Source: Candidatus Limnocylindrales bacterium
Lineage (GTDB): Bacteria; Moduliflexota; Moduliflexia; Moduliflexales; JAUQPW01
Length of the DNA stretch: 64,000 nt
NCBI GenBank assembly: GCA_035559535.1
Contig: DATMBG010000040.1
Location: forward strand, 1 to 64,000
Reading direction: 5' to 3'
The notes under the pieces: generated by a model
The model's database searches: none
What the model saw: only the letters and a program-made list of their open reading frames with translations
What the model was told of the DNA's origin: nothing
Made by a program: the position numbers and the translations under genes
Shown here: positions 4,724 to 59,514 of the stretch, one piece after another
Layout of the letters: every line of letters begins with the position of its first letter
How positions within the stretch are numbered: the stretch's first letter is position 1

Positions 4724-5704
4724 TTGAAAAAAATTGCAGTTTTAACCAGTGGGGGGGATGCGCCGGGGATGAATGCCTGCATCCGGGCCGTTGTTCGTAC
4801 TGCCCTTTACAAAAATCTCAGGGTGATTGGAATTCGACGGGGCTATAGCGGTCTTCTTTCTGGGGATTTCATGAAAATGACTACCGGCTCCGTCGCCAAT
4901 ATCATTCAACGAGGGGGGACTATTCTGGGTACTTCCCGGTGTGAAGAGTTCAGAACTTCAGAGGGGAGGGCCCGGGCCTTTGAGATGATTCAAAAAGAAG
5001 GCATTGAAGGGCTCATCGTCATCGGCGGAGACGGAACCTTTCGAGGGGCTTATGAGCTGTCCCGACAGGGAGATGTTCCCATCGTGGGAGTTCCAGGGAC
5101 CATCGATAATGATGTGTATGGGACTGATGAGACGATCGGTTTTGATACGGCCATCAACACGGCCCTGGAAGCCATTGACAAAATTCGGGATACCGCGGCT
5201 TCCCATGAGCGGGTTTTCTTTGTGGAGGTGATGGGGAGATCCTCGGGTTTTATCGCCGCCCAGGTGGGACTGGGTGGAGGTGCTGAGTTCGTGGTAGTTC
5301 CCGAAACAAGAACCGATCTCAACGAGCTTTGTGAAAGACTTCTTAAAAGCATTCGACGGGGTAAAAAAGCCTGTATCGTCATCGTAGCCGAAGGAAAGGA
5401 ATCTGGAGGGGCTTTCCAGATAGCCCAACAAGTCAATGCCTGTATTGGAACCGAATATCGGGTTTGTGTACTCGGGCATATTCAACGGGGAGGTTCCCCC
5501 ACAGCCCGAGACCGCGTCCTGGCCAGTAAATTGGGCTCTGCTGCCGTAAACGCTCTACTTGCCGGTCATAGAAACGTCATGGTTGGAGAAGTCAAAGGAG
5601 AAATCGTCTTGACCCCCTTGGAAGAAACCTGGACCAAAGTTAAACCCATCGATCGCTCCTTGCTGGAACTGGTCGATATCCTGGCCGGAGGCACTAAGAA
5701 TTGA
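4724..5704 (+). CDS. pfkA: ATP-dependent 6-phosphofructokinase
   Basis: A 326-residue cytosolic glycolytic enzyme that phosphorylates fructose 6-phosphate. It has the N-terminal GGDAPGMN nucleotide loop (10-17), IGGDGTFRG (100-108) and PGTIDND (124-130) with the catalytic Asp at 128. Gly104 (in GGDGT) and the Gly in PGTIDND are the residues that distinguish ATP-using enzymes from pyrophosphate-dependent ones, so the donor should be ATP. Length matches the bacterial PfkA family (about 320). The start is TTG at 4724, chosen because a strong AAGGAGG lies just upstream and the protein then begins MKKIAVLTSGG, as in the family. A long hairpin follows one base after its stop codon and leads straight to the glcF-like gene. 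Confidence 0.96.
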   Translation: MKKIAVLTSGGDAPGMNACIRAVVRTALYKNLRVIGIRRGYSGLLSGDFMKMTTGSVANIIQRGGTILGTSRCEEFRTSEGRARAFEMIQKEGIEGLIVIGGDGTFRGAYELSRQGDVPIVGVPGTIDNDVYGTDETIGFDTAINTALEAIDKIRDTAASHERVFFVEVMGRSSGFIAAQVGLGGGAEFVVVPETRTDLNELCERLLKSIRRGKKACIVIVAEGKESGGAFQIAQQVNACIGTEYRVCVLGHIQRGGSPTARDRVLASKLGSAAVNALLAGHRNVMVGEVKGEIVLTPLEETWTKVKPIDRSLLELVDILAGGTKN

Positions 5705-5705
5705 C

Positions 5706-5847
5706 GGGAGTGTGGGAGGTGTGGGAGCATGGAAGTATGGAAGTATGGAAGTGGGAGAGTATAGAAGTGAGGGATTTCTTCTATACTTTCCCACCCCTAT
5801 ACCTCCATACTCCCCTACTTCCATACTCCCACACCTCCCACACTCCC
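5706..5847 (+). repeat. Long purine/pyrimidine hairpin between pfkA and glcF (element A)
   Basis: Left arm 5706-5767 (purine-rich), loop 5768-5777, right arm 5778-5847 (pyrimidine-rich). The outer 22 bases of the arms are perfectly complementary. Inside, the left arm has octamer units of the TATGGAAG type, and the right arm is about one octamer (8 bases) longer. It begins one base after the pfkA stop and ends 13 bases before the glcF ATG, which has no Shine-Dalgarno sequence. It has no T-tract, so it is not a classical terminator. Confidence 0.85.
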
Positions 5848-5860
5848 ATACATTCTTTAG

Positions 5861-7168
5861 ATGGACCTGTTATCACCTGAAGTTCAAAGTGAAATACTTA
5901 AGTGTGTTAGATGCCGGACTTGCTTGCCAGTTTGTCCTACCTTTGCAGAACTAGAAGTAGAGATGGATTCTCCCAGAGGACGTATTGCCCTGGCCAAAGC
6001 CTTATCCGAGGGAAAAATTTCAGTTACAGAAAGACTGGTTGGACATTTGTACTGTTGCCTGGATTGCAGAGCTTGTGAAACGGTCTGTCCCTCGGGGGTT
6101 AAATATGGAGAGATTATTGAAAGTGCAAGGTCTTATGTGGAAGAACACTGGAAGCGCCCCAAACCGGAGCAGTTCCTTAAAACCCTCTTTTTGAAAGAAA
6201 TCTTTCCTTATCCCAGACGGCTGGAAGGGTTAGCCTGGATACTTCGACTTTATCAGAAAAGTGGTCTTCAAACCTTCCTTCGTAAATTCAATTTGACCCG
6301 TTTATTGCCTGGAAATTTAGGAGAACTGGAAAAAATGACGCCGGTTCTGTCCAATCGATCATCCCGCTCCACACTTCCTTCGATCATCCCTCCCAAAGGA
6401 GAGAGGCGATATCGGGTAGCCCTGCTCTTAGGATGTATCACAGATATCGGTTTTGCTTCTTTGAATGAAGCAACGGCCCGGGTTCTCTCCGAGAACGGAT
6501 GTGAAGTCCTGACGGTCAAAGAGCAGAAATGTTGTGGAGCTTTACAGGTCCATAACGGAGAGTCTAAAATAGCCCGAGAGATGGCCAGATACAACCTCCA
6601 GGTCTTTGAAAGCGCGGGGGTCGATTACGTGATTGTAAATGCGGCAGGGTGTGGAGCCATGTTGAAAGAATATGGCTTCTTACTGGGCGACGACTCGCAA
6701 TATCGGGAACGGGCCCGAATCTTCAGTAGCCAGGTACGGGATGTCAACGAATTCCTGGTCGATGTGGTACAGGCTAACGGAGGACTTCGAGGAACCCTAA
6801 ATCCGATACCCAAGCGGGTGGCTTACCATGATGCCTGCCATCTGGCCCATGGTCAGAGGGTCAGAAAACAACCCCGTAAACTCCTCCAGTCCATTCCGGC
6901 ACTGGAACTTGTCGAACTCAAAGAATCCGACTGGTGCTGTGGAAGCGCCGGAATTTATAACATCACGAACTATAACATGTCCATGCGGTTACTGGATCGA
7001 AAGATGGATAACGTGGCAAAAACTCGGGCAGAAATCCTTGCTGCTGCCAACCCGGGATGCATGATCCAACTGGAAGTAGGGATCAAAAAGAAGGGTCTGG
7101 CAATGAAGGTCATGCATCCTATTGAGCTTTTAGATAAAGCCTACCATCCAGAACATCCTTTCTTATAA
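5861..7168 (+). CDS. glcF: Glycolate oxidase iron-sulfur subunit (GlcF type)
   Basis: A 435-residue protein. Two N-terminal [4Fe-4S] motifs, CVRCRTCLPVCPT and CLDCRACETVCPS, are followed by two CCG (heterodisulfide-reductase-type) domains. The first CCG domain has LLGCITDIGFA and KCCGALQVHNGE; the second has YHDACHLAHGQ and DWCCGSAGIYNI. This is the standard GlcF layout. The protein passes electrons from a GlcD-type flavin subunit, probably to the membrane quinone pool. A candidate flavin partner lies at 13353-14804, separated by the metal-transport block. The ATG at 5861 gives the expected N-terminus but has no ribosome binding site, being preceded by the C-rich arm of a long hairpin. A related 2-hydroxyacid oxidase (for example D-lactate) is the alternative. 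Confidence 0.88.
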   Translation: MDLLSPEVQSEILKCVRCRTCLPVCPTFAELEVEMDSPRGRIALAKALSEGKISVTERLVGHLYCCLDCRACETVCPSGVKYGEIIESARSYVEEHWKRPKPEQFLKTLFLKEIFPYPRRLEGLAWILRLYQKSGLQTFLRKFNLTRLLPGNLGELEKMTPVLSNRSSRSTLPSIIPPKGERRYRVALLLGCITDIGFASLNEATARVLSENGCEVLTVKEQKCCGALQVHNGESKIAREMARYNLQVFESAGVDYVIVNAAGCGAMLKEYGFLLGDDSQYRERARIFSSQVRDVNEFLVDVVQANGGLRGTLNPIPKRVAYHDACHLAHGQRVRKQPRKLLQSIPALELVELKESDWCCGSAGIYNITNYNMSMRLLDRKMDNVAKTRAEILAAANPGCMIQLEVGIKKKGLAMKVMHPIELLDKAYHPEHPFL

Positions 7169-7265: not shown

Positions 7266-8141
7266 TTATAAATCTTCCAATAACTCCGAAGCCCGTTTAC
7301 TTACGGAACGAGGAACGACCTTCTGCCCAGGGAAGCGAAAGCTGCTATAACCCAGGACTCCGGAGAAGACCAGGGAAGCGAAAAGAACAATGCTGGCTCC
7401 GGAGGCGATATCCAGATAATAGCTGAGATACATGCCTACTACGGCAGTTAGAGACCCCAGCAGAACCGATAAACCCACCAACTTACTGAAACTATCGGTT
7501 AGGAGGCGGGCCGTAATGGCCGGGGTAACGATGGCGGCAGCGATCAAAGTGACGCCCATGACCTGCATGGAAGCAATAATAGCCGCAGCCAGGATGAGAG
7601 AAAACAGGGTGTTTACCCGGCGGGTGGGAACTCCATAAACTCTGGCGACTTCTTCATCAAAGGTGCTAAAGAGGAGCTGTTTATAAAAAAAGAAAATTCC
7701 CATGGCTGCAAACAGGGTCACTATGAGAATAACCACAAGATCGGTGGAAGTAACCCCTAGAATATTACCGAATAGAGCGGCCTCAAAGTTCCTTGTAAAT
7801 TTTCGGGCCCGGCTGATCAATGCGACCCCCATGGCGAAGCTGGCGGTGGTAACAACCCCGATGGCGGCGTCTGCTCCGATTTTTCTCCGTCGCGTAACCT
7901 CGTTAATCACCAACGCAGCTAAAAATCCCCACAACGCTGCACCTACATAAAAATTAAGACTTAATACATAGCTGATAACCGCTCCCCCAAAAACGGCATG
8001 GGATAAACCATGGCCAATGTAACTCATTCTTCTTAAAACAATATAAACTCCGATGAGTCCACAAAGTCCTCCGACCAGAAAGGCGGCCAGGAGTCCTCGG
8101 CGAAAGAACTCATATTGGAAAGGATGTAGGAGAAATTCCAT
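7266..8141 (-). CDS. znuB: Metal ABC transporter permease (ABC-3 family, ZnuB/MntB-like)
   Basis: A 291-residue membrane protein of the ABC-3 family with about eight hydrophobic segments. Family-typical stretches include GGLCGLIGVYIVLRRMSYIGH (near the N-terminus), SHAVFGGAVI and GVTLIAAAIVTPAITARLL. It forms the channel of the zinc or manganese importer encoded with the upstream ATPase and binding protein. Start at ATG 8141 immediately follows the pyrimidine-rich arm of a hairpin in the transcript and has no Shine-Dalgarno sequence. Convergent with glcF; the 97-base gap shows nothing distinctive. Confidence 0.88.
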   Translation of the reverse strand: MEFLLHPFQYEFFRRGLLAAFLVGGLCGLIGVYIVLRRMSYIGHGLSHAVFGGAVISYVLSLNFYVGAALWGFLAALVINEVTRRRKIGADAAIGVVTTASFAMGVALISRARKFTRNFEAALFGNILGVTSTDLVVILIVTLFAAMGIFFFYKQLLFSTFDEEVARVYGVPTRRVNTLFSLILAAAIIASMQVMGVTLIAAAIVTPAITARLLTDSFSKLVGLSVLLGSLTAVVGMYLSYYLDIASGASIVLFASLVFSGVLGYSSFRFPGQKVVPRSVSKRASELLEDL

Positions 8142-8230
8142 GGGAGAACGGGAAGGTGGGAGAGGGAAAGAATGAGGTGTGGAAGAAATATGCAGACTCC
8201 CACACTTCTATCTTTCCACACTTCCACCTT
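8142..8230 (-). repeat. Hairpin filling the znuC-znuB gap (element B)
   Basis: The whole 89-base space between the znuC stop (8231-8233) and the znuB ATG (8139-8141) is an imperfect inverted repeat with arms near 8152-8184 and 8199-8230. Read as transcript (minus strand), the purine-rich arm comes first and the pyrimidine-rich arm abuts the start codon, as in element A. Sequence words (GTGTGGAAG, GGTGGGAG) resemble those of element A. Confidence 0.75.
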
Positions 8231-9064
8231 TTATTCATGGGATTTAAGCACCAGAGCGCTATTGGCAATCAGAGTAAGTGGACCTTGCTTGATAACCATC
8301 ATCTCCGAGTTATAGGTTTGCCGCAGGACTTCGGTTGTAAAAATTTCCTCAGGAGCCCCCTGGGCAATAACCCTTTGATTAAAGCAAATAACCCAGGGAA
8401 GATGCGCGGCGATTGCATTAAGATCATGGGTAGTTAAGAGAATCGTAACCCCTTTTAAATTAACTTCTGCCAACAGATGCAAGATATCATGTTGCGTTTT
8501 GAGATCTACACCGGCCGTCGGTTCGTCCAATAAAATCAGCTTGGGGTTTCCAATAAGCGCCCGGGCAAGAAAAACGCGTTGTTGCTGTCCACCGGAGAGG
8601 TTTCGTATCTGACGTTTTGCATAGGCCGTCAGCCCAAGCCGTTCCAGAAGTTCTGAGACCAGCCGACGATCTCGGGAGTTAGGCCATGGTAAGATCCCCA
8701 TCTCTCGATATCGCCCCATCAGGACCACTTGCTCTACGGTTACCGGAAAGTCCCAATCCACACTTTCCAATTGGGGCACATATCCGATGAAGGGAGGGGC
8801 TTTTCCTTGAACCGGTTGGCCTAAAACGGTAACCATCCCCTGTAAGGGTTTAACAAGGCCTAAAATAACTTTAAGCAATGTCGTTTTACCAGATCCGGTT
8901 GGACCTACAATTCCTGCAAACTGACCTTGATATATGTTTAGATCGACCTTCTCAAAGACTGGAGAGTGATCATACCCACAGGAAACATCCACCAATTCAA
9001 TAACCGGACGTTCTTTGATCCGAGTCTGTTGTCCACTAATTGTTGTCGGGGGTTGACTGTTCAT
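8231..9064 (-). CDS. znuC: Metal ABC transporter ATP-binding protein (ZnuC-like)
   Basis: A 277-residue ATPase with Walker A GPTGSGKT, Q loop (YVPQLESVDWDFP), signature LSGGQQQR, Walker B LILLDEPTAG and the switch His in TTHDL. YVPQ followed by DWDFPVTV is characteristic of the zinc/manganese (ABC-3) subfamily. It powers import with the ZnuB-like permease at 7266-8141. ATG at 9064 is preceded by TGGAGG at about 11 bases. An N-terminal tail of about 18 residues precedes the ABC fold. It lies 121 bases after znuA in the same direction. Confidence 0.9.
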   Translation of the reverse strand: MNSQPPTTISGQQTRIKERPVIELVDVSCGYDHSPVFEKVDLNIYQGQFAGIVGPTGSGKTTLLKVILGLVKPLQGMVTVLGQPVQGKAPPFIGYVPQLESVDWDFPVTVEQVVLMGRYREMGILPWPNSRDRRLVSELLERLGLTAYAKRQIRNLSGGQQQRVFLARALIGNPKLILLDEPTAGVDLKTQHDILHLLAEVNLKGVTILLTTHDLNAIAAHLPWVICFNQRVIAQGAPEEIFTTEVLRQTYNSEMMVIKQGPLTLIANSALVLKSHE

Positions 9065-13352: not shown

Positions 13353-14804
13353 ATGTTACAGAATAAAAAAACCATGAAGGATCAGTTCCTATATAAATTG
13401 GAAAGTCTTCTCGATAAAGGAAGCCTCTGGATAGGATCGAACATTCCAGGGAAATATTATACCGATGAAACCGGCGAAGTGGGAGAGCCTGAAGGCGTAG
13501 GTCTACCTTCTTCTGTGGAGGAGGTGAAAGCATTAATTCAAGTTGCTTACGAAGAGGAGATTCCCATTACCCCTCGAGGGGGGGGAAGTGGTTTACGAAG
13601 AGGAGCTGTCCCCTCAAAAGGGAGTTTTGTGCTGAGTTTGGAAAAACTTAATAAAATAATCGATCTTGATAGGGTCAATTACATTGCTAAGGTTCAACCG
13701 GGTGTTATTACGGCTGATCTTCGCCGGGCAGCCCAGGAACAAGGGTTGTTTTATCCGGTCGATCCTTTAAGCTCCGAGATAAGTACATTAGGGGGCGATG
13801 TTGCCGAGAACGCCCATGGTCTCCATGGAGTTCGGTATGGGGAATTAAGGGATTATATTCGACGGCTTGATTTCATTCTCCCTACAGGAGAGATTGCACA
13901 TACCGGTGCAGTTCCCATGAAATCTGTGAGTGGATACGATATGAATAAACTTTTCATCGGTTCAAAGGGAACCTTAGGTATCTTTACAGAAATTACCCTC
14001 AAGCTCCTCCCCCAACCGGAGACCACCAGAACCCTTGTAGCCGGCTTTCGGCATCTGAAGGAAGCAGCGGCGGTGGCAAGTGCCATAATAACTCATCTAC
14101 TAACTCCCTCAGCCCTGGAAATCCTGGATAAAAATTTTATTCAATTTCTTCAGAAAAATTATAGAGACAGCCTGCCGGCTCTTCCGATCCCGGAGGGAGA
14201 GGCCCTCCTACTTATAGAAGTGGACGGATTTGAAGATTCGATTAAGCAACAACTTCAACAAGTGGAAAATATTTGTCAAAACCACAAAGTCCTTGACATA
14301 CTAAGAAATCTCTCCCAGGACCAGGAGCAAAAGCTCTGGGATGCGCGAAAATTGTGGTCTTACGTTGTACTGAACAGCAGAAGAAGCCAAATTTCCGGAC
14401 CGAAAATTTCCCCTGTAGAAGACATCTCCTCTGTATTATTTTTAAGTTTTTTTATTCCTCCGGCTGATTTAGAGAAAGCCATAGCAAGGTTAGAAGCCAT
14501 TCTAAATCAAGTTCCTGGGTTTACCACTCTTTTCGGCCATGCCGGTGAAGGAAATCTTCATGCTGCCGTTTCTTTCCCTTCAAATCAAGACTTCAAGTCC
14601 GTTGTCCCTTCCGTTTGTCGGCAGGTAGCCGAGATGGTCCATACATTTCAAGGTCTTTATGCTAAAGAGTACTTTATAGGTATGTCTCCGATATCCACGG
14701 CTTTTTCTCAAAGGATCTCACCCGGTCTTCAGGAGGTTTTTTCTCAATTCAAAAAGAAGGTAGATCCTCGCAATATTTTGAATCCGGATAAGGTTTTGGT
14801 ATAA
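13353..14804 (+). CDS. FAD-linked oxidase, GlcD/D-lactate dehydrogenase type
   Basis: A 483-residue flavoprotein. The N-terminal PCMH-type FAD-binding domain (about 45-220) contains PRGGGSGLRRGA and PVDPLSSEISTLGGDVAENAHG; the C-terminal FAD-oxidase domain has the metal-site motif GHAGEGNLHA and ends FKKKVDPRNILNPDKV. Such enzymes oxidise 2-hydroxyacids such as glycolate or D-lactate. The GlcF-type subunit at 5861 is a plausible partner, although the next genes encode another iron-sulfur protein. Start is uncertain: neither ATG 13353 nor ATG 13374 has a ribosome binding site. TTGACA (13333-13338) with TACAGA (13357-13362) could be a promoter, which would make the 13374 start nearly leaderless. 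Confidence 0.85.
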   Translation: MLQNKKTMKDQFLYKLESLLDKGSLWIGSNIPGKYYTDETGEVGEPEGVGLPSSVEEVKALIQVAYEEEIPITPRGGGSGLRRGAVPSKGSFVLSLEKLNKIIDLDRVNYIAKVQPGVITADLRRAAQEQGLFYPVDPLSSEISTLGGDVAENAHGLHGVRYGELRDYIRRLDFILPTGEIAHTGAVPMKSVSGYDMNKLFIGSKGTLGIFTEITLKLLPQPETTRTLVAGFRHLKEAAAVASAIITHLLTPSALEILDKNFIQFLQKNYRDSLPALPIPEGEALLLIEVDGFEDSIKQQLQQVENICQNHKVLDILRNLSQDQEQKLWDARKLWSYVVLNSRRSQISGPKISPVEDISSVLFLSFFIPPADLEKAIARLEAILNQVPGFTTLFGHAGEGNLHAAVSFPSNQDFKSVVPSVCRQVAEMVHTFQGLYAKEYFIGMSPISTAFSQRISPGLQEVFSQFKKKVDPRNILNPDKVLV

Positions 14805-14905
14805 AACCCAAAGGGTAAAACGTAAATAAGGTATCCCCCTTTCCTCCCCCTGTGTACGGGGGGAATTAGTCCGGATCTTATCTTTTATGTTTTACCTTTG
14901 AGGTT
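14805..14905 (+). repeat. Hairpin between flavin oxidase and ferredoxin gene (element G)
   Basis: Left arm 14805-14836 (AACCCAAAGGGTAAAACG...) pairs imperfectly with right arm 14871-14905 (...TTTTACCTTTGAGGTT), enclosing an inner CCCCC/CGGGGG stem near 14846-14862. It fills the gap from the stop codon to 11 bases before the next ATG, as in elements A and B, but with different words. No run of T follows. Confidence 0.6.
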
Positions 14906-14916
14906 TTCAGGTATTT

Positions 14917-16462: not shown

Positions 16463-16545
16463 TTTCAGCCGGCGGTTCAAAGGTTATTATCTCTCTTCTA
16501 TTCTATCTAACCGATATAAACTGGGAAAGAAATATATATCCGTAT

Positions 16546-16684
16546 CCATTTAGTAGGTAGAAAAAGAAACACCCTCCCACATCCCCCCTCCAGGAGGGAC
16601 TGACGTAGGGTTGCTGCCGCTGAAGTCCCCCCGGAGGGGGGATGGGGGGGTATTCAGATAGAAAAAGTGACACCTACTAAATGG
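16546..16684. mobile_element. MITE-like element with 13-base terminal inverted repeats
   Basis: CCATTTAGTAGGT (16546-16558) and ACCTACTAAATGG (16672-16684) are perfect inverted repeats bounding a 139-base segment. Inside are a second inverted pair, CATCCCCCCTCC against GGAGGGGGGATG, and a direct repeat TAGAAAAAG.(A/G)ACACC near each end. There is no ORF. I see no target-site duplication, so transposition is not proven; a large stem-loop is the alternative. The rest of the 16463-16854 gap holds the promoter below. Confidence 0.5.
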
Positions 16685-16710
16685 TTACAGTTACAGGAAT
16701 ATTTGATGGC

Positions 16711-21586: not shown

Positions 21587-21627
21587 TAGTAACGACTTTA
21601 GTGAATTCTAAACTGGAGTCGTTACTA
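21587..21627. repeat. Perfect 11-base inverted repeat
   Basis: TAGTAACGACT (21587-21597) and AGTCGTTACTA (21617-21627) with a 19-base loop, ten bases after the dehydrogenase stop. No T-run follows, so it is a weak terminator candidate and more like a dispersed palindrome. Confidence 0.5.
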
Positions 21628-21852: not shown

Positions 21853-22977
21853 ATGGATCCAAGTACCAGCAAAACCATTGCAGAGCAAATTTGTAAAAAC
21901 AAATCTGGTGAATTGTCTCAAGTCTTGACCCTTCATAAGGGAGAGAAACATATCATCGCCCTTCAGAATTTTCCTGACCCCGATGCTATCTCTTCAGCGT
22001 TTGCTCACAAACTCATTTGTTTAAAATATGACATTGACGTGGATATCGTTTATGATGGGAAAGTCAGCCATCAACAAAATATCGCTTTGATCAAACTTCT
22101 GGATATAGAGCTCATTCGATACTCAGAAAGCCTGGATCTTACCCAATACCACGGAAGTGCATTCATCGATAATCAAGGAACAACTACCAGTTTAGTAAAA
22201 AAGCTAGAACAGGCGGGAGTAAAACCCCTTATTGTAGTAGACCATCATGAACGACAAAATATCATCCAAAATCCAGAATTTACAGATATTCGAAAAATCG
22301 GAGCAACGGCTACTATTTATACCAACTATATCAAGGATGGACTGCTGGAGTTATCCAAATCCGATCGAGATCACGTAAAGTGTGCCACTGCGCTTATGCA
22401 CGGAATCCGAAGCGAGACTTCGGAATTAATTCGGGCTAAGGAAGAAGATCTCATGGCAGCGGCATTCCTGAGTAATTACCACGATCCCGGCCTTCTGGGC
22501 GAAATCGTTAATCAATCTCGATCCAAGAAGGTCATGGATATTATCCATAAAGCTTTAGAAAATAGGGTCATTAAGGATAACTTCAGTATTTCCGGCATCG
22601 GTTATCTTCGGGCAGAAGATCGAGACGCCATTCCTCAAGCAGCAGACTTCCTGGCAACGGAGGAAAACGTCCACACGGCTATTGTATACGGAATTATAGT
22701 AACCGACAAAAACGAGGAACTCCTGAGCGGTTCGTTTCGTACCTCCAAATTAACCATAGATCCGGATGAATTCATCAAGGATACTTTTGGAAAGAATGAA
22801 ATTGGAAAGTATTTTGGAGGTGGAAGGCAAGAAGCCGGAGGCTTTGAGATACCCATAGGATTTCTTTCCGGTTCTTCCGGCAAAGAATATGATGCCTTGA
22901 AATGGCAGGTTTACGATCTTCAGGTCAAGCAGAAGCTTTTTAATAAGATTGGGATTACGGAAAAAGGCAAGGATTAG
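21853..22977 (+). CDS. DHH/DHHA1-family phosphoesterase (NrnA-like)
   Basis: A 374-residue protein. Motif I is FPDPDAISSAFA, where NrnA and RecJ have a similar N-P-D-x-D; Asp is found in FIDNQG; motif III is VVDHHER, the signature DHH. The C-terminal DHHA1 domain ends GGGRQEAGGFEIPIGF. The family hydrolyses short oligonucleotides, cyclic dinucleotide products or pAp using Mn. Which substrate is used here cannot be read from sequence. Divergent from nothing, convergent with guaB, and preceded by its own promoter. Confidence 0.87.
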   Translation: MDPSTSKTIAEQICKNKSGELSQVLTLHKGEKHIIALQNFPDPDAISSAFAHKLICLKYDIDVDIVYDGKVSHQQNIALIKLLDIELIRYSESLDLTQYHGSAFIDNQGTTTSLVKKLEQAGVKPLIVVDHHERQNIIQNPEFTDIRKIGATATIYTNYIKDGLLELSKSDRDHVKCATALMHGIRSETSELIRAKEEDLMAAAFLSNYHDPGLLGEIVNQSRSKKVMDIIHKALENRVIKDNFSISGIGYLRAEDRDAIPQAADFLATEENVHTAIVYGIIVTDKNEELLSGSFRTSKLTIDPDEFIKDTFGKNEIGKYFGGGRQEAGGFEIPIGFLSGSSGKEYDALKWQVYDLQVKQKLFNKIGITEKGKD

Positions 22978-22988
22978 AGGTAGGAAAG

Positions 22989-23033
22989 AAAGTGTGGGAG
23001 TATGGAGGTACCCTCCCACACTCCCATACTTCC
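22989..23033. repeat. Hairpin between convergent DHH and guaB genes (element C)
   Basis: AAGTGTGGGAGTATGGAGG on the plus strand pairs imperfectly with CCTCCCACACTCCCATACTT. The words are the same as in element A (GTGTGGGAG, GTATGGAG), but here the element sits between two convergent stop codons, so it cannot affect a start codon. Confidence 0.7.
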
Positions 23034-23034
23034 C

Positions 23035-24609
<1,575 letters not shown>

Positions 24610-42465: not shown

Positions 42466-42617
42466 GCCGAATTCTGGCATTTATGAAATTGTTTTCTATT
42501 ACCTGGAACTGAACCAAACCTGGCTTTGCCGGATAGTAGGAAAAGAAAAAGAGGGAGTGACTTTTTTTGTTACTCCGTTAACTATTTTTGGCTTGATCTC
42601 CGGATAACTGTTGAGAG

Positions 42618-42664
42618 GCCAGAAGTCGGAAAATCAGTTCGAATTCTGACTCCCGACTCCTGCC
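42618..42664 (+). repeat. Hairpin before GT39 gene (element I)
   Basis: GGCCAGAAGTCGGAAAATCAG (42618-42638) pairs imperfectly with CTGACTCCCGACTCCTGCC (42646-42664). The 42675 ATG follows after ten bases with no ribosome binding site. Its AGAAGTCGG words recur at 31945-31990 and in the coding start of YfhO copy 3. Confidence 0.6.
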
Positions 42665-42674
42665 AGATTTTTTG

Positions 42675-55937: not shown

Positions 55938-55989
55938 GGGCAACGGGCGCCCATCGTCCTTACTAAAAACAGCAGGCAGGAGGTCGTTA

Positions 55990-56026
55990 AGTAAAGAAAC
56001 GGGTAATTCACCGATTGTTGTTTACT
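55990..56026 (+). repeat. Hairpin before lapA (element J)
   Basis: AGTAAAGAAACGGGT (55990-56004) pairs imperfectly with ACCGATTGTTGTTTACT (56010-56026) in the 106-base gap between kdsC and the lapA-like ATG (56044), which lacks a ribosome binding site. Confidence 0.45.
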
Positions 56027-56043
56027 GCTCACTGTCTCTATCT

Positions 56044-56409: not shown

Positions 56410-56481
56410 AAATGTTTACGTCTCGATACCCTTGCATTTTTTTCCTAAGTTAGGACTTTTATCCATGAAGGACCCGGAAAA

Positions 56482-56614
56482 GTGTGGAAGGATGGGGGGA
56501 TGGGAGGGTGGAAGGATGGAAGGATGGAAGGATGGAAGGGTGGAAGGATCGGAGTATAAGGGTAGAACTACAGCTATCCTCTACTCCCATCCTCCCATAC
56601 CCCCATACTTATCC
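56482..56614 (+). repeat. Asymmetric octamer hairpin before exbD (element D)
   Basis: Purine-rich left arm 56482-56565, loop of 8, pyrimidine-rich right arm 56574-56614 that ends at the exbD ATG. The left arm is about twice as long and contains five tandem octamers of the GGAAGGAT type at 56510-56549 (one with a single change). The right arm pairs with the inner part of the left. No Shine-Dalgarno sequence precedes the ATG. Confidence 0.8.
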
Positions 56615-57013
56615 ATGCAGTTCAAGAGAAAACGTCGCTACCAACCTGAGATCAATGTAATCAATTTTATTGATGTCTTATTGATGCTGTTGATTTTTTT
56701 CATGATTTCTACTACTTTTATAAAGCAACCCGGAATCCGTGTAGATTTACCTCTTGCCAAATCTGGAACCGGAGATACACAGGAAGGTATCGTCATAACG
56801 ATAACCAACGATAATACTCTCTTTTTAAATGGGCAAAAGGTTACAAAGGAAGTATTATATTCCAATCTGAGACAACTTAATTTAGAGCGTCAGGATCATC
56901 TGGTAGTGATCCGAGCCGACAAAAAAGTTGAGCACGGATGGGTAGTAGCCGTTATGGATACGGCAAAGACTGCCGGGTTTAATCGGTTCGCCATTGCTAC
57001 CAAATCCCAATAA
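56615..57013 (+). CDS. exbD: ExbD/TolR-family biopolymer transport protein
   Basis: A 132-residue inner-membrane protein starting MQFKRKRRYQPEINVINFID at ATG 56615. One TM helix (about 18-40) carries the essential Asp (D20 in INFIDVLL), followed by a periplasmic domain (to 132). It couples proton flow to TonB or Tol complexes with an ExbB/TolQ partner, which is not adjacent. The frame is open through the upstream hairpin back to 56432, giving a 61-residue extension of repeat-encoded sequence (GRMGGWEGGRMEGWKDG...); I reject this as protein but cannot exclude a longer start. Confidence 0.85.
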   Translation: MQFKRKRRYQPEINVINFIDVLLMLLIFFMISTTFIKQPGIRVDLPLAKSGTGDTQEGIVITITNDNTLFLNGQKVTKEVLYSNLRQLNLERQDHLVVIRADKKVEHGWVVAVMDTAKTAGFNRFAIATKSQ

Positions 57014-57608: not shown

Positions 57609-57842
57609 ATGTTTAAACCCAAGGGAAAGCGTTTTAGACGTAGAAAAGTTTGCCGGTTCTGTGCAGAAAAAGTTGTTTATATCGATTATAAAGATCAAAA
57701 ACGTCTCAGGGGGTTTATTACCGAAAGGGGAAAAATAGTTCCTCGAAGAATATCCGGTAACTGTGCCTATCATCAGAGGCGTCTTACCACCGCCATTAAG
57801 CGGGCAAGACATATTGCTCTGCTTCCATTCACGGCAGAATAA
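57609..57842 (+). CDS. rpsR: 30S ribosomal protein S18
   Basis: A 77-residue S18 with the family core [21 protein letters not shown] and [23 protein letters not shown] with C-A-Y-H further on suggests the zinc-binding (C+) form. Preceded by AAGGAGGGAG. It binds with S6 to the 16S rRNA platform. A hairpin follows its stop. Confidence 0.97.
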
Positions 57843-57848
57843 TTCATT

Positions 57849-57918
57849 GGGCGATGAGTCCTGGGGGATGAAGAACGGCCCTCTCTTTTATCCCTCATCT
57901 CCCAGGATCCATCGCCTG
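57849..57918 (+). repeat. Hairpin between rpsR and rplI (element F)
   Basis: GGCGATGAGTCCTGGGGGATGA (57850-57871) pairs imperfectly with TCATCTCCCAGGATCCATCGCC (57895-57916). It occupies the 87-base gap and ends about 12 bases before the rplI ATG, which has no Shine-Dalgarno sequence, unusual for a ribosomal protein gene. Confidence 0.7.
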
Positions 57919-57929
57919 GGACTTCTAAC

Positions 57930-58385
57930 ATGCAGGTGATTTTAAAACAGGATGTAGAAAAGCTGGGTAAACGGTGGGACCAGGTTAAGGTAGCAGATGG
58001 ATATGCCAGGAATTATTTGATTCCAAAAGGATTAGCCATGGAAGCTACTCCCCAGAATCTGATGATCCTTAAGCGGTTCCAGGAGGCTGAAGCAAGGAAG
58101 AAACAAAAAGAATTGGAACAGGCTGAACAGATCGCCAAGAAAATCAGAAGTTTATCTTGTGTTATTACAAGACAGGCCGGGGAAGGTGATAAACTCTTCG
58201 GATCGGTAACATCCATCGATATCGCTAACTTTCTAGAAGAAAATAAAATTCAGATAGACCGAAAGAAAATCGATCTGGAAGAACCCATTAAATCTCTTGG
58301 GGTGTTCAGGGTTCCGATCAAGCTTCATCCCGAAGTTATTGCAGAGCTTAAAGTTAAAGTTGTTAAGGAAGAAAATCCAAAGTAG
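57930..58385 (+). CDS. rplI: 50S ribosomal protein L9
   Basis: A 151-residue L9. N-terminal domain MQVILKQDVEKLGKRWDQVKVADGYARNYLIPKGLAM, a long helix rich in Lys/Glu/Gln (about 45-80) and C-terminal domain with LFGSVTSIDIANFL and IKSLGVFRVPIKLHPEVIAELKVKVV. Full length. The start follows a hairpin with no ribosome binding site, so translation may be coupled to rpsR. Confidence 0.97.
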   Translation: MQVILKQDVEKLGKRWDQVKVADGYARNYLIPKGLAMEATPQNLMILKRFQEAEARKKQKELEQAEQIAKKIRSLSCVITRQAGEGDKLFGSVTSIDIANFLEENKIQIDRKKIDLEEPIKSLGVFRVPIKLHPEVIAELKVKVVKEENPK

Positions 58386-58400
58386 CCAGCAGGAATAAGA

Positions 58401-58475
58401 GTGGGAGAATAGGAGAACAAGAAATAGGGGCGGATCCTAGATCCGCCCTTACTTCTCCTATCTTCCCATCCACCC
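58401..58475 (+). repeat. Hairpin between rplI and the LOG gene (element E)
   Basis: Purine-rich arm 58401-58435, loop 58436-58440, pyrimidine-rich arm 58441-58475. The inner stem GGGGCGGAT/ATCCGCCC is perfect. It starts 16 bases after the rplI stop and ends 10 bases before the LOG ATG; as at glcF, the last bases before the start are TTTAG, with no Shine-Dalgarno sequence. Confidence 0.8.
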
Positions 58476-58485
58476 ATCCTTTTAG

Positions 58486-59514
58486 ATGAATACAGATCCC
58501 CTTTCAAATCCAGACAGCGAAACCTATATTACTCAGCTACTTAATTTATATAAGGATTCCCCCAATACCGAACTTGTTAAGGGTATTATTTTAAATATCT
58601 TAAAGCTGTTAGAAAACAATACCGATCGTGGTGATATTAAAATCATTTATAATACCTTGAAAGATATGGGGCAGGCGCTCAGAACTTTTGCACCCTATCG
58701 ACATATTCGAAAGGTAAGCATTTTCGGTTCTGCCCGAATTCCAGAAACAGATCCTGAATTTGAACAGGCCGTTAAGTTTGCTGAGAAAATTAGGGAGCAT
58801 GGATTTATGATCATCACCGGAGCGGGGAATGGAATTATGAAGGCGGCCCAAAAGGGAGCCGGTCGAGAACATAGTTTTGGGGTTAATATCCGGTTGCCCT
58901 TCGAGCAACAAGCCAATGAGTATATTCGAGGCGATCCGAAGCTTATTCATTTTAAATATTTCTTTACCAGAAAGCTGTTCTTTATCAAAGAGACCCATGC
59001 GGCTGTGTTCTTCCCAGGAGGTTTTGGTACCCTGGATGAAGCCTTTGAATCCTTGACTCTGGTTCAGACTGGTAAGTCTATGCCCCTTCCCCTTGTTTTT
59101 TTAGATATCCCTGGAGGAACTTACTGGTCGGAGTGGAAAACCCATATTGAACAGCATATGCTTAAAAGAGGGCTTATCTCTCCGGAAGACCTCCACCTTT
59201 TTAAGGTTACCGATCATGTGGATGAGGCTTGTGAGGAGATTCTAAACTTCTACAAAGTTTACCATTCCCTCCGCTATGTAAAAAATCAACTCATTATTCG
59301 GTTACAAAAGCCTATTGAACCTGAGTTGTTGGATATCTTGAACGCTGAATTTAAGGATATCCTGGCCCAGGATAGGATACAACAAACACACGCCGCCTAT
59401 GAGGGTCTGGACGAGGGGGATCTGGCCAACCTGCCTCGATTGGTCTTTTATTTTAACCGCAAAAGCTTCGGTCGGTTACGTCAGATGATCGACCGGATCA
59501 ACAAGGGGATATAG
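58486..59514 (+). CDS. LOG-family (Rossmann) nucleotide phosphoribohydrolase-like protein
   Basis: A 342-residue protein. The central domain (about 80-265) is LOG-like: SIFGSARIPETDPEF, ITGAGNGIMKAAQKGAG, GVNIRLPFEQQAN and FPGGFGTLDEAFE, the PGGxGTxxE active-site motif that cleaves nucleoside 5'-monophosphates such as cytokinin precursors. It is longer than the usual 190-230 residues, with an N-terminal helical part (1-75) and a C-terminal part (270-342) that I cannot assign. The next gene starts 2 bases after its stop. Confidence 0.87.
   Translation: MNTDPLSNPDSETYITQLLNLYKDSPNTELVKGIILNILKLLENNTDRGDIKIIYNTLKDMGQALRTFAPYRHIRKVSIFGSARIPETDPEFEQAVKFAEKIREHGFMIITGAGNGIMKAAQKGAGREHSFGVNIRLPFEQQANEYIRGDPKLIHFKYFFTRKLFFIKETHAAVFFPGGFGTLDEAFESLTLVQTGKSMPLPLVFLDIPGGTYWSEWKTHIEQHMLKRGLISPEDLHLFKVTDHVDEACEEILNFYKVYHSLRYVKNQLIIRLQKPIEPELLDILNAEFKDILAQDRIQQTHAAYEGLDEGDLANLPRLVFYFNRKSFGRLRQMIDRINKGI

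Follow-up and report, generated by a model that had tools for sequence, protein, structure and literature searches.

The gap between pfkA and glcF in an uncultured bacterium (genome G000, 5.6 Mb) is filled by a long hairpin that begins around one stop codon and ends just before the next start codon. The question is what such a hairpin does there. The sequence-only reading of this DNA assigned it to a class of intergenic hairpins that replace the ribosome binding site and bridge stop and start codons. We followed this up in the window, that is, the whole stretch of 64,000 nucleotides analysed, in G000, and in three comparison genomes: G001 of the same genus, and G002 and G003 of the same order, G003 being in another family. 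The hairpins are real and little described. They are probably dispersed extragenic inverted repeats of the STRR/REP kind, distributed like the G-rich repeats of Xanthomonas, with the displacement of the Shine-Dalgarno (SD) sequence as a by-product.

Hairpins in the window

The long hairpin in the pfkA-glcF gap was confirmed. Its arms (5696-5752 and 5801-5857) are 57 nt long and 88% complementary. In G001 a hairpin was kept at this position with strongly altered arms. The MAG 'bacterium isolate JZ-2.bins.100.201901', whose GlcF is 94% identical, had the same gap as G001 in the compared stretch. The sites in the window are listed below.

5696..5857, between pfkA (4724-5704, + strand) and glcF (5861-7168, + strand): gap-filling G-family hairpin (GGRRGTRTGG octamer words) with loop GGGATTTCT
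8146..8236, between the ABC transporter genes 8231-9064 (- strand) and 7266-8141 (- strand): gap-filling hairpin, 4 nt from the start, alignable in G001
14803..14907: TAAAACG-type hairpin with an additional G/C-rich hairpin at its tip, the latter not in G001
22975..23047, between convergent genes (21853-22977, + strand; 23035-24597, - strand): G-family hairpin overlapping both stop codons, not among the sites named earlier
42618..42664: short GTCAG-type hairpin of 17 pairs, 14 of them Watson-Crick; 0/200 shuffles on its own coordinates and 4/200 over the whole gap
55990..56026: weak inverted repeat whose score 24/200 shuffles reach, within chance
56466..56624, before exbD (56615-57013, + strand): G-family hairpin, computed stem extending 10 nt beyond the start; G001 without hairpin
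57841..57924, between rpsR (read by eye) and rplI (57930-58385, + strand): hairpin ending 5 nt before the start; its G001 counterpart has several changes
58397..58481, between rplI and a LOG-type gene (58486-59514, + strand): hairpin with tip GGGGCGGATCCTAGATCCGCCC, the tip absent from G001

The eight sites that the sequence-only reading had named were tested against 200 dinucleotide shuffles, both on the coordinates it gave and over the whole gap. On their own coordinates seven of them showed 0/200, and the eighth, 55990-56026, fell within chance. Over the whole gap, six gave 0/200, gap 42466-42674 gave 4/200 with a best hairpin different from the one named there, and gap 55938-56043 gave 24/200. 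Genes next to the window hairpins showed Pfam matches to PFK, GlcF-like CCG/Fer4, ABC-3, ABC_tran, ExbD, L9, and LOG-type (Lysine_decarbox). An Rfam 15 scan of the window gave 0 matches at the gathering score.

Another kind of element was observed at 16537-16693 of the window and on G000 contig C12 (126309-126671); its stems resemble CCCCCTGGCCCCCCTCCAGGGGGG and its ends TATCCGTATCCATTTAGTAGGT. G001 lacks it at the C12 position, where inspection by eye showed about 9 bases (CCATTCTGC) directly duplicated in G000, the pattern of a MITE-type insertion. A GTAACGACTTTAGTCGTTAC-like palindrome family was present at 21587-21627 of the window and in several gaps of G000.

Abundance and layout of the hairpins

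The survey covered 1.264 Mb of G000 and 0.842 Mb of G001. Genes were called with our own dicodon model, which has no SD term, and the best hairpin was sought in each gap. A hairpin had at least 16 pairs, 75% of them Watson-Crick, a loop of up to 60, and a score of at least 30. Among gaps of 25-1199 nt, those above about 1,170 nt being left unfolded, hairpins occurred in 102/559 co-directional, 16/92 convergent, and 19/115 divergent gaps of G000. The corresponding counts in G001 were 75/386, 11/58, and 9/70. The dinucleotide-shuffle background was 13/1530 and 18/1028.

The layout of stop codon, hairpin, and start codon with few bases on each side was recovered across the genome sample, and in G003 with other words. 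Hairpins with both feet no more than 30 nt from the neighboring stop and start, termed gap-filling, made up 54/102 co-directional hairpins in G000 and 46/75 in G001. In 41 of these 100 hairpins the 3' foot stood 3-9 nt before the start, a distance that carries the error of our gene caller, which missed rpsR and put the glcF start 102 nt late. The 5' foot lay around the stop. For rplI, the stop-hairpin-start arrangement was observed in both G000 and G001.

The arms were arrays of short words, the commonest being the octamer GGRRGTRTG, and each second arm was the reverse complement of the first. Further arm words were TTGTCCG, TAAAACG, GTCAGGA, AAAGTGCC, and GGACGCGG. Recurring loop types (e.g., GTAAATTC, AAGTAAAGTGTTCA, GAGTTCTATCTT) were common to unlinked loci and occurred in both orientations. 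The hairpins are found genome-wide in the sample and belong to a set, built from repeated words, that is shared across the genus.

Strong stems after stop codons would also agree with transcription terminators or attenuators, and Rho was present with one match above the cut-off per genome. Of the 8 nt that follow the stem, five or more were T in only 1/37 G-family and 2/72 other gap-filling co-directional hairpins, against a background fraction of 0.08. The remaining co-directional hairpins showed, for contrast, a T tract in 10/62 (tails with fewer than 8 usable bases dropped). Moreover, a hairpin that ends few bases before a start leaves no room for the promoter of the next gene. An intrinsic terminator was rejected because no T tract follows the stems, and a role in termination or attenuation as a whole is highly improbable.

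Gap type, orientation, and arm polarity

The sequence-only reading implied that the hairpins are specific for the downstream start and held that they share one orientation to transcription. G-family clusters were observed in 62/953 co-directional, 12/151 convergent, and 2/190 divergent gaps; the remaining clusters were scored as genic (7) or lay at contig ends (5). Co-directional gaps differed from divergent ones (p = 0.0015) and did not differ from convergent ones (p = 0.49). As convergent gaps hold the main family as frequently as co-directional gaps and divergent gaps rarely do, this family follows stop codons, not starts, and specificity for the start was not supported. The near-absence from divergent gaps also indicates that the location is filtered. 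All hairpins in G000 gaps of 80-249 nt differed less between gap types (60/276 co-directional, 8/45 convergent, 5/31 divergent).

With regard to orientation, an inverted repeat is identical on both strands, so a purine arm that comes first gives no direction to transcription, and the claim of a common orientation is void by symmetry. Loop words of co-directional gaps ran in the sense direction at 14 and antisense at 9 distinct loci (orthologues merged, p = 0.41). One-armed G clusters showed a similar picture (9 sense, 7 antisense).

The polarity of the arms was fixed. The G word came first on both strands in 58/58 two-sided clusters; the other 30 of the 88 clusters were one-armed. Polarity was 18:0 for TTGTCCG, 6:0 for TAAAACG, and 7:1 for the small families, 31:1 summed, with orthologous gaps entered once per genome. 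The underlying rule is not 'purine first', because TTGTCCG arms are not purine-rich and the first arm in G003 is A/C-rich. Fixed polarity together with the avoidance of divergent gaps, the latter also described for Xanthomonas repeats (PMC4692102), makes a clean new data set.

Occurrence downstream of stop codons, in co-directional as well as convergent gaps, and depletion in divergent gaps would also suit a REP-like 3' element, one selected because its hairpin shields the end of the upstream mRNA or influences its decay. The base-pair changes described below bear on this proposal.

Shine-Dalgarno sequences behind the hairpins

A hairpin was taken as abutting when its stem ended within 12 nt of the start or beyond it. 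The anti-SD used agrees with the 16S tail of G001, and stretches with fewer than 20 usable bases were dropped from the SD and wobble counts. In G000, genes behind abutting hairpins showed a mean SD duplex energy of 0.00 (n = 43) vs. −4.98 for hairpin-free co-directional genes (n = 464, p = 1.7e-13). In G001 the values were −2.47 (n = 36) vs. −5.03 (n = 323, p = 9e-4). Little or no anti-SD pairing remains behind abutting hairpins because the arm occupies the SD position. Genes without SD are common here, as the core motif was missing in 58% (G000) and 56% (G001) of hairpin-free genes.

Other hairpins with a 3' foot within 30 nt of the start (n = 23 and 22), mostly 13-30 nt away and some closer yet far from the stop, showed core motif frequencies of 0.43 and 0.45 vs. 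a background of 0.42 and 0.44. The low SD signal claimed for genes with a hairpin was confirmed for those behind abutting ones. The arms had also been described as SD-like and anti-SD-like sequences paired to each other. This description does not fit the TTGTCCG and TAAAACG arms or the A/C-rich first arms of G003, which are not SD-like.

The exbD gap measured 205 nt in G000, with a G-family hairpin and no SD, and 60 nt in G001, with AGGAGAG before the ATG and no hairpin. Such natural pairs, in which the same gene has an SD sequence in one genome and a long hairpin in the other, make SD-independent start selection and coupling directly testable.

In the stop-start bridge of the sequence-only reading, a ribosome at the stop of the 5' foot would be handed to the start past the 3' foot, with the hairpin replacing the SD sequence. 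The 3-9 nt setback of the 3' foot in gap-filling hairpins, with no SD there, agrees with this, and so do the rplI arrangement in both genomes and the same layout with other words in another family (G003). Overlap of stems with coding sequence was also more frequent at the stop than at the start (28:10 in G000, p = 0.005; 17:8 in G001, p = 0.11). This bias and the setback together hint at a helix that forms in the mRNA and has to keep clear of the start. Against the bridge, the main family is equally frequent between convergent genes, where no start exists, the loops have no sense-strand orientation, and the wobble bias was not significant (see below). An SD sequence at the 5' foot that folding would deliver to the start was considered and rejected, since the excised-gap energy (−3.73, n = 33; −3.53, n = 28) was no stronger than that of shifted controls (−3.72 and −3.64, respectively). 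A review (PMC12548453) states that coupling declines with distance and is negatively correlated with structure immediately downstream of the stop. The bridge is therefore an unlikely explanation. We give similarly little credence to its extension to the order, in which gap-filling hairpins would be a working SD alternative. The repeat would then fold stop and start to within about 10-20 bases of each other so that ribosomes are handed across, exbD-like genes would switch between SD-led and hairpin-led starts within the genus, and the arms would be free to vary if they match.

Base-pair changes and divergence

A helix kept in the mRNA predicts that G-U is tolerated more than C-A on the sense strand. 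The G-U to C-A ratio in gap-filling co-directional hairpins was 172:146 in G000 and 124:123 in G001 (jointly p = 0.27). Other co-directional hairpins showed 124:86 and 92:61, and this excess suggests that the test is able to detect asymmetry.

Pair changes and divergence between G000 and G001 were compared under an identity limit of 70%, which removes most G-family pairs. These two comparisons, like those of presence and template switching, covered gap pairs up to 500-700 nt (43 longer pairs fell outside the presence recount). The 30 alignable hairpins (1005 pairs) showed 46 changes from Watson-Crick to G-U and 44 from Watson-Crick to C-A. Reverse changes were 23 from G-U vs. 11 from C-A (p = 0.06), which leans towards RNA selection and is in favor of the bridge. 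With both directions pooled, the ratio was 69:55 (p = 0.24). Pair changes were one-sided in 172 cases vs. 19 two-sided, and there were 9 double Watson-Crick changes vs. 1-4 in slid controls. Alignable co-directional gaps with a hairpin (27) had 0.098 substitutions per site, and hairpin-free ones (119) had 0.106. Clear upkeep as a sense-strand RNA helix, which the bridge had implied, was thus not borne out by the wobble ratios or by the forward changes, though the reverse changes lean the other way.

For the REP-like 3' element, selected for its effect on the upstream mRNA, the same results are unfavorable: there was no significant sense-strand wobble preference, alignable hairpins diverged like spacers, and no RAYT/Y1 transposase was found in G000 or G001. 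We regard this explanation as doubtful.

Turnover and template switching

Seventeen G-family loci of G000 had a blindly chosen orthologue in G001. By word count, 10 of these have the family in G001; of the others, 3 were judged by eye to retain a reduced or degenerate hairpin, and 4 have none. The count omits contigs C64, C182, C183, and C149, where the choice was made with the hairpins already known. None of the 339 G000 gaps without the G family in the presence set has the family in G001. Lengths and repeats varied between orthologues while the arms still paired. At C12:82264-82452, a 189-nt hairpin gap in G000 corresponded to a 5-nt gap in G001, and no target-site duplication (the MITE criterion) was visible by eye at this one site. 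At C12:227703, a gain (or loss, which two genomes cannot separate from gain) was nested inside the tip of another hairpin. A 351-nt gap of G000 (C22:176568-176918) held many more repeat words, with one small hairpin in G001, and may represent an expansion.

Loop inversion is a sign of template switching. We searched for stretches, 13 nt or longer and differing in 3 or more columns, in which one genome carries the reverse complement of the gap sequence in the other. Such replacements were observed in 17/472 directed comparisons (236 gap pairs), with 0 in reversed and 2 in complement controls. Twelve of the 17 lay in G-type gaps, which readily yield reverse-complement matches; the 5 outside them came from 4 gaps, one counted in both directions, and both controls gave 0. 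A stricter test retained 3/1015 difference clusters (controls 0 and 0). In the clearest case (C12:236805-237021), 29 nt of G001 are the exact reverse complement of the G000 loop and 3' arm, and the loop is inverted. Reverse-complement replacement, as a hairpin maintained by template switching should show, is therefore observed here.

The replacement at C12:236805-237021 agrees with the mechanism described by Monttinen and Loytynoja 2022 (PMC8794818), in which reverse-complement copying creates or repairs stems in one event and produces multi-base changes. That study concerns RNA genes, whereas the present elements are intergenic repeats between protein genes. Arm rewriting of this kind between close relatives, which resembles the outcome of template switching, warns against reading paired changes as proof of RNA selection.

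Origin of the hairpins

Dispersed inverted repeats turned over at the DNA level probably explain these results, and the observations that count for them are a main family confined to the genus in the genomes searched, its equal frequency in convergent and co-directional gaps, the loop words common to unlinked loci, the turnover, the reverse-complement replacements, the lack of a significant wobble preference, the spacer-like divergence, and the exbD pair. Copying, slippage, and template switching acting on the hairpin would create, lengthen, shorten, and rewrite the arms. Template switching left the footprints described above, and slippage is a presumed contributor. Loop words common to unlinked loci suggest spread by copying. 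The main family lies beside gene 3' ends, and an element filling a short operon gap replaces the SD sequence. The downstream gene may then start SD-independently or by coupling to the upstream gene, so that SD loss would be a consequence of the element and not its purpose.

Several observations stand against the DNA-repeat explanation. Some hairpin was retained at 13/17 loci despite the turnover of the arms. The 23:11 reverse changes, the 9 double changes vs. 1-4 in controls, the 3-9 nt setback, the stop-side overlap, and the avoidance of divergent gaps also count against it. Furthermore, neutral copying or switching alone does not predict the fixed arm polarity.

Comparison with known repeats

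Rehm et al. 2015 (PMC4692102) describe heptamer repeats, GGGAATC in Xanthomonas and GGGGA(C/T)T in Nostoc, which are mostly intergenic. They lie between co-directional genes and are under-represented between divergent ones. Their G-rich strand is close to the stop codon where it is the coding strand, and close to the start where it is the non-coding strand. Two Xanthomonas genomes held 70 and 75 convergent inverted pairs, whose repeat length varies while the pair type is usually kept; Nostoc had few such pairs (PMC4692102). The G family resembles these repeats in being intergenic and under-represented in divergent gaps, and the Xanthomonas inverted pairs in having the G word first on both strands. 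It differs in its unit, which is the octamer GGRRGTRTG instead of a heptamer (GGGNATC, GGGGAYT), and, compared with Nostoc, in its two-armed clusters (58/88). Families without G words in the same layout, whole-gap stems in the SD position, and template-switch footprints also set the present elements apart from the Xanthomonas and Nostoc repeats.

Similar repeats formed quadruplexes in vitro in Rehm et al. 2015 (PMC4692102), and G-quadruplex elements with an incidental inverted copy were therefore considered. Among 46 strands with at least 3 G words, 28 fit the G3+L1-7 pattern and might fold in this way, but 18 do not. The TTGTCCG, TAAAACG, and G003 families are not G-rich and nevertheless have the same layout. 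This explanation is the most improbable one.

In the P6b stem of the Nostoc tRNA-Leu intron, arms consist of short repeated words, and units are gained or lost, sometimes on both sides of the stem (PMC4476775). The G000 hairpins are similar to this stem and to cyanobacterial STRRs in having arms of short repeated words, but they are dispersed between genes, while the intron stem has one fixed position.

REP/BIME elements are many-copy extragenic palindromes beside 3' ends. The present hairpins share these properties, but their arms are longer and made of tandem words, and they come without a Y1/RAYT transposase. The Y1 transposase (PF01797) was found in 0/2 genomes (G000, G001), and 5/14 control genomes matched. 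Mobilisation as RAYT-driven REPs was rejected on this ground. Among the matches listed in a search of literature outside subscription, there was no paper on this lineage or on such an octamer family.

Distribution beyond the genus

In a search of 385 genomes, the G-family 18-mer GGGAGTRTGGGAGTRTGG occurred 96 times in G000 and 79 times in G001, with 0 copies in G002 and G003 and one copy in one of the other 381 genomes. A (GTCAGRA)n 17-mer was present in 18/385 genomes, including G000 and G001 (others were, e.g., G279, G334, G173, and G304), and a reversed control word in 9. GTCAGRA hairpins common to distant genomes were considered and rejected, as 0/10 inspected loci satisfied the tight-hairpin rule.

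A 20-kb sample of G002 showed no tight hairpin in 11 gaps. In 100 kb of G003, tight hairpins were found in 12/43 co-directional, 2/4 convergent, and 1/3 divergent gaps, with 1/50 in shuffles. The 5 strong hairpins inspected there were all co-directional; 4 were gap-filling, with words unlike those of G000. From these G003 hairpins, the gap-filling layout recurs in the order with different sequences. Several of the gap-filling hairpins of G003 are built of CCCACAGAACACACGGAAAGACACGG words, with an A-rich spacer between the stem and the start codon a few bases downstream.
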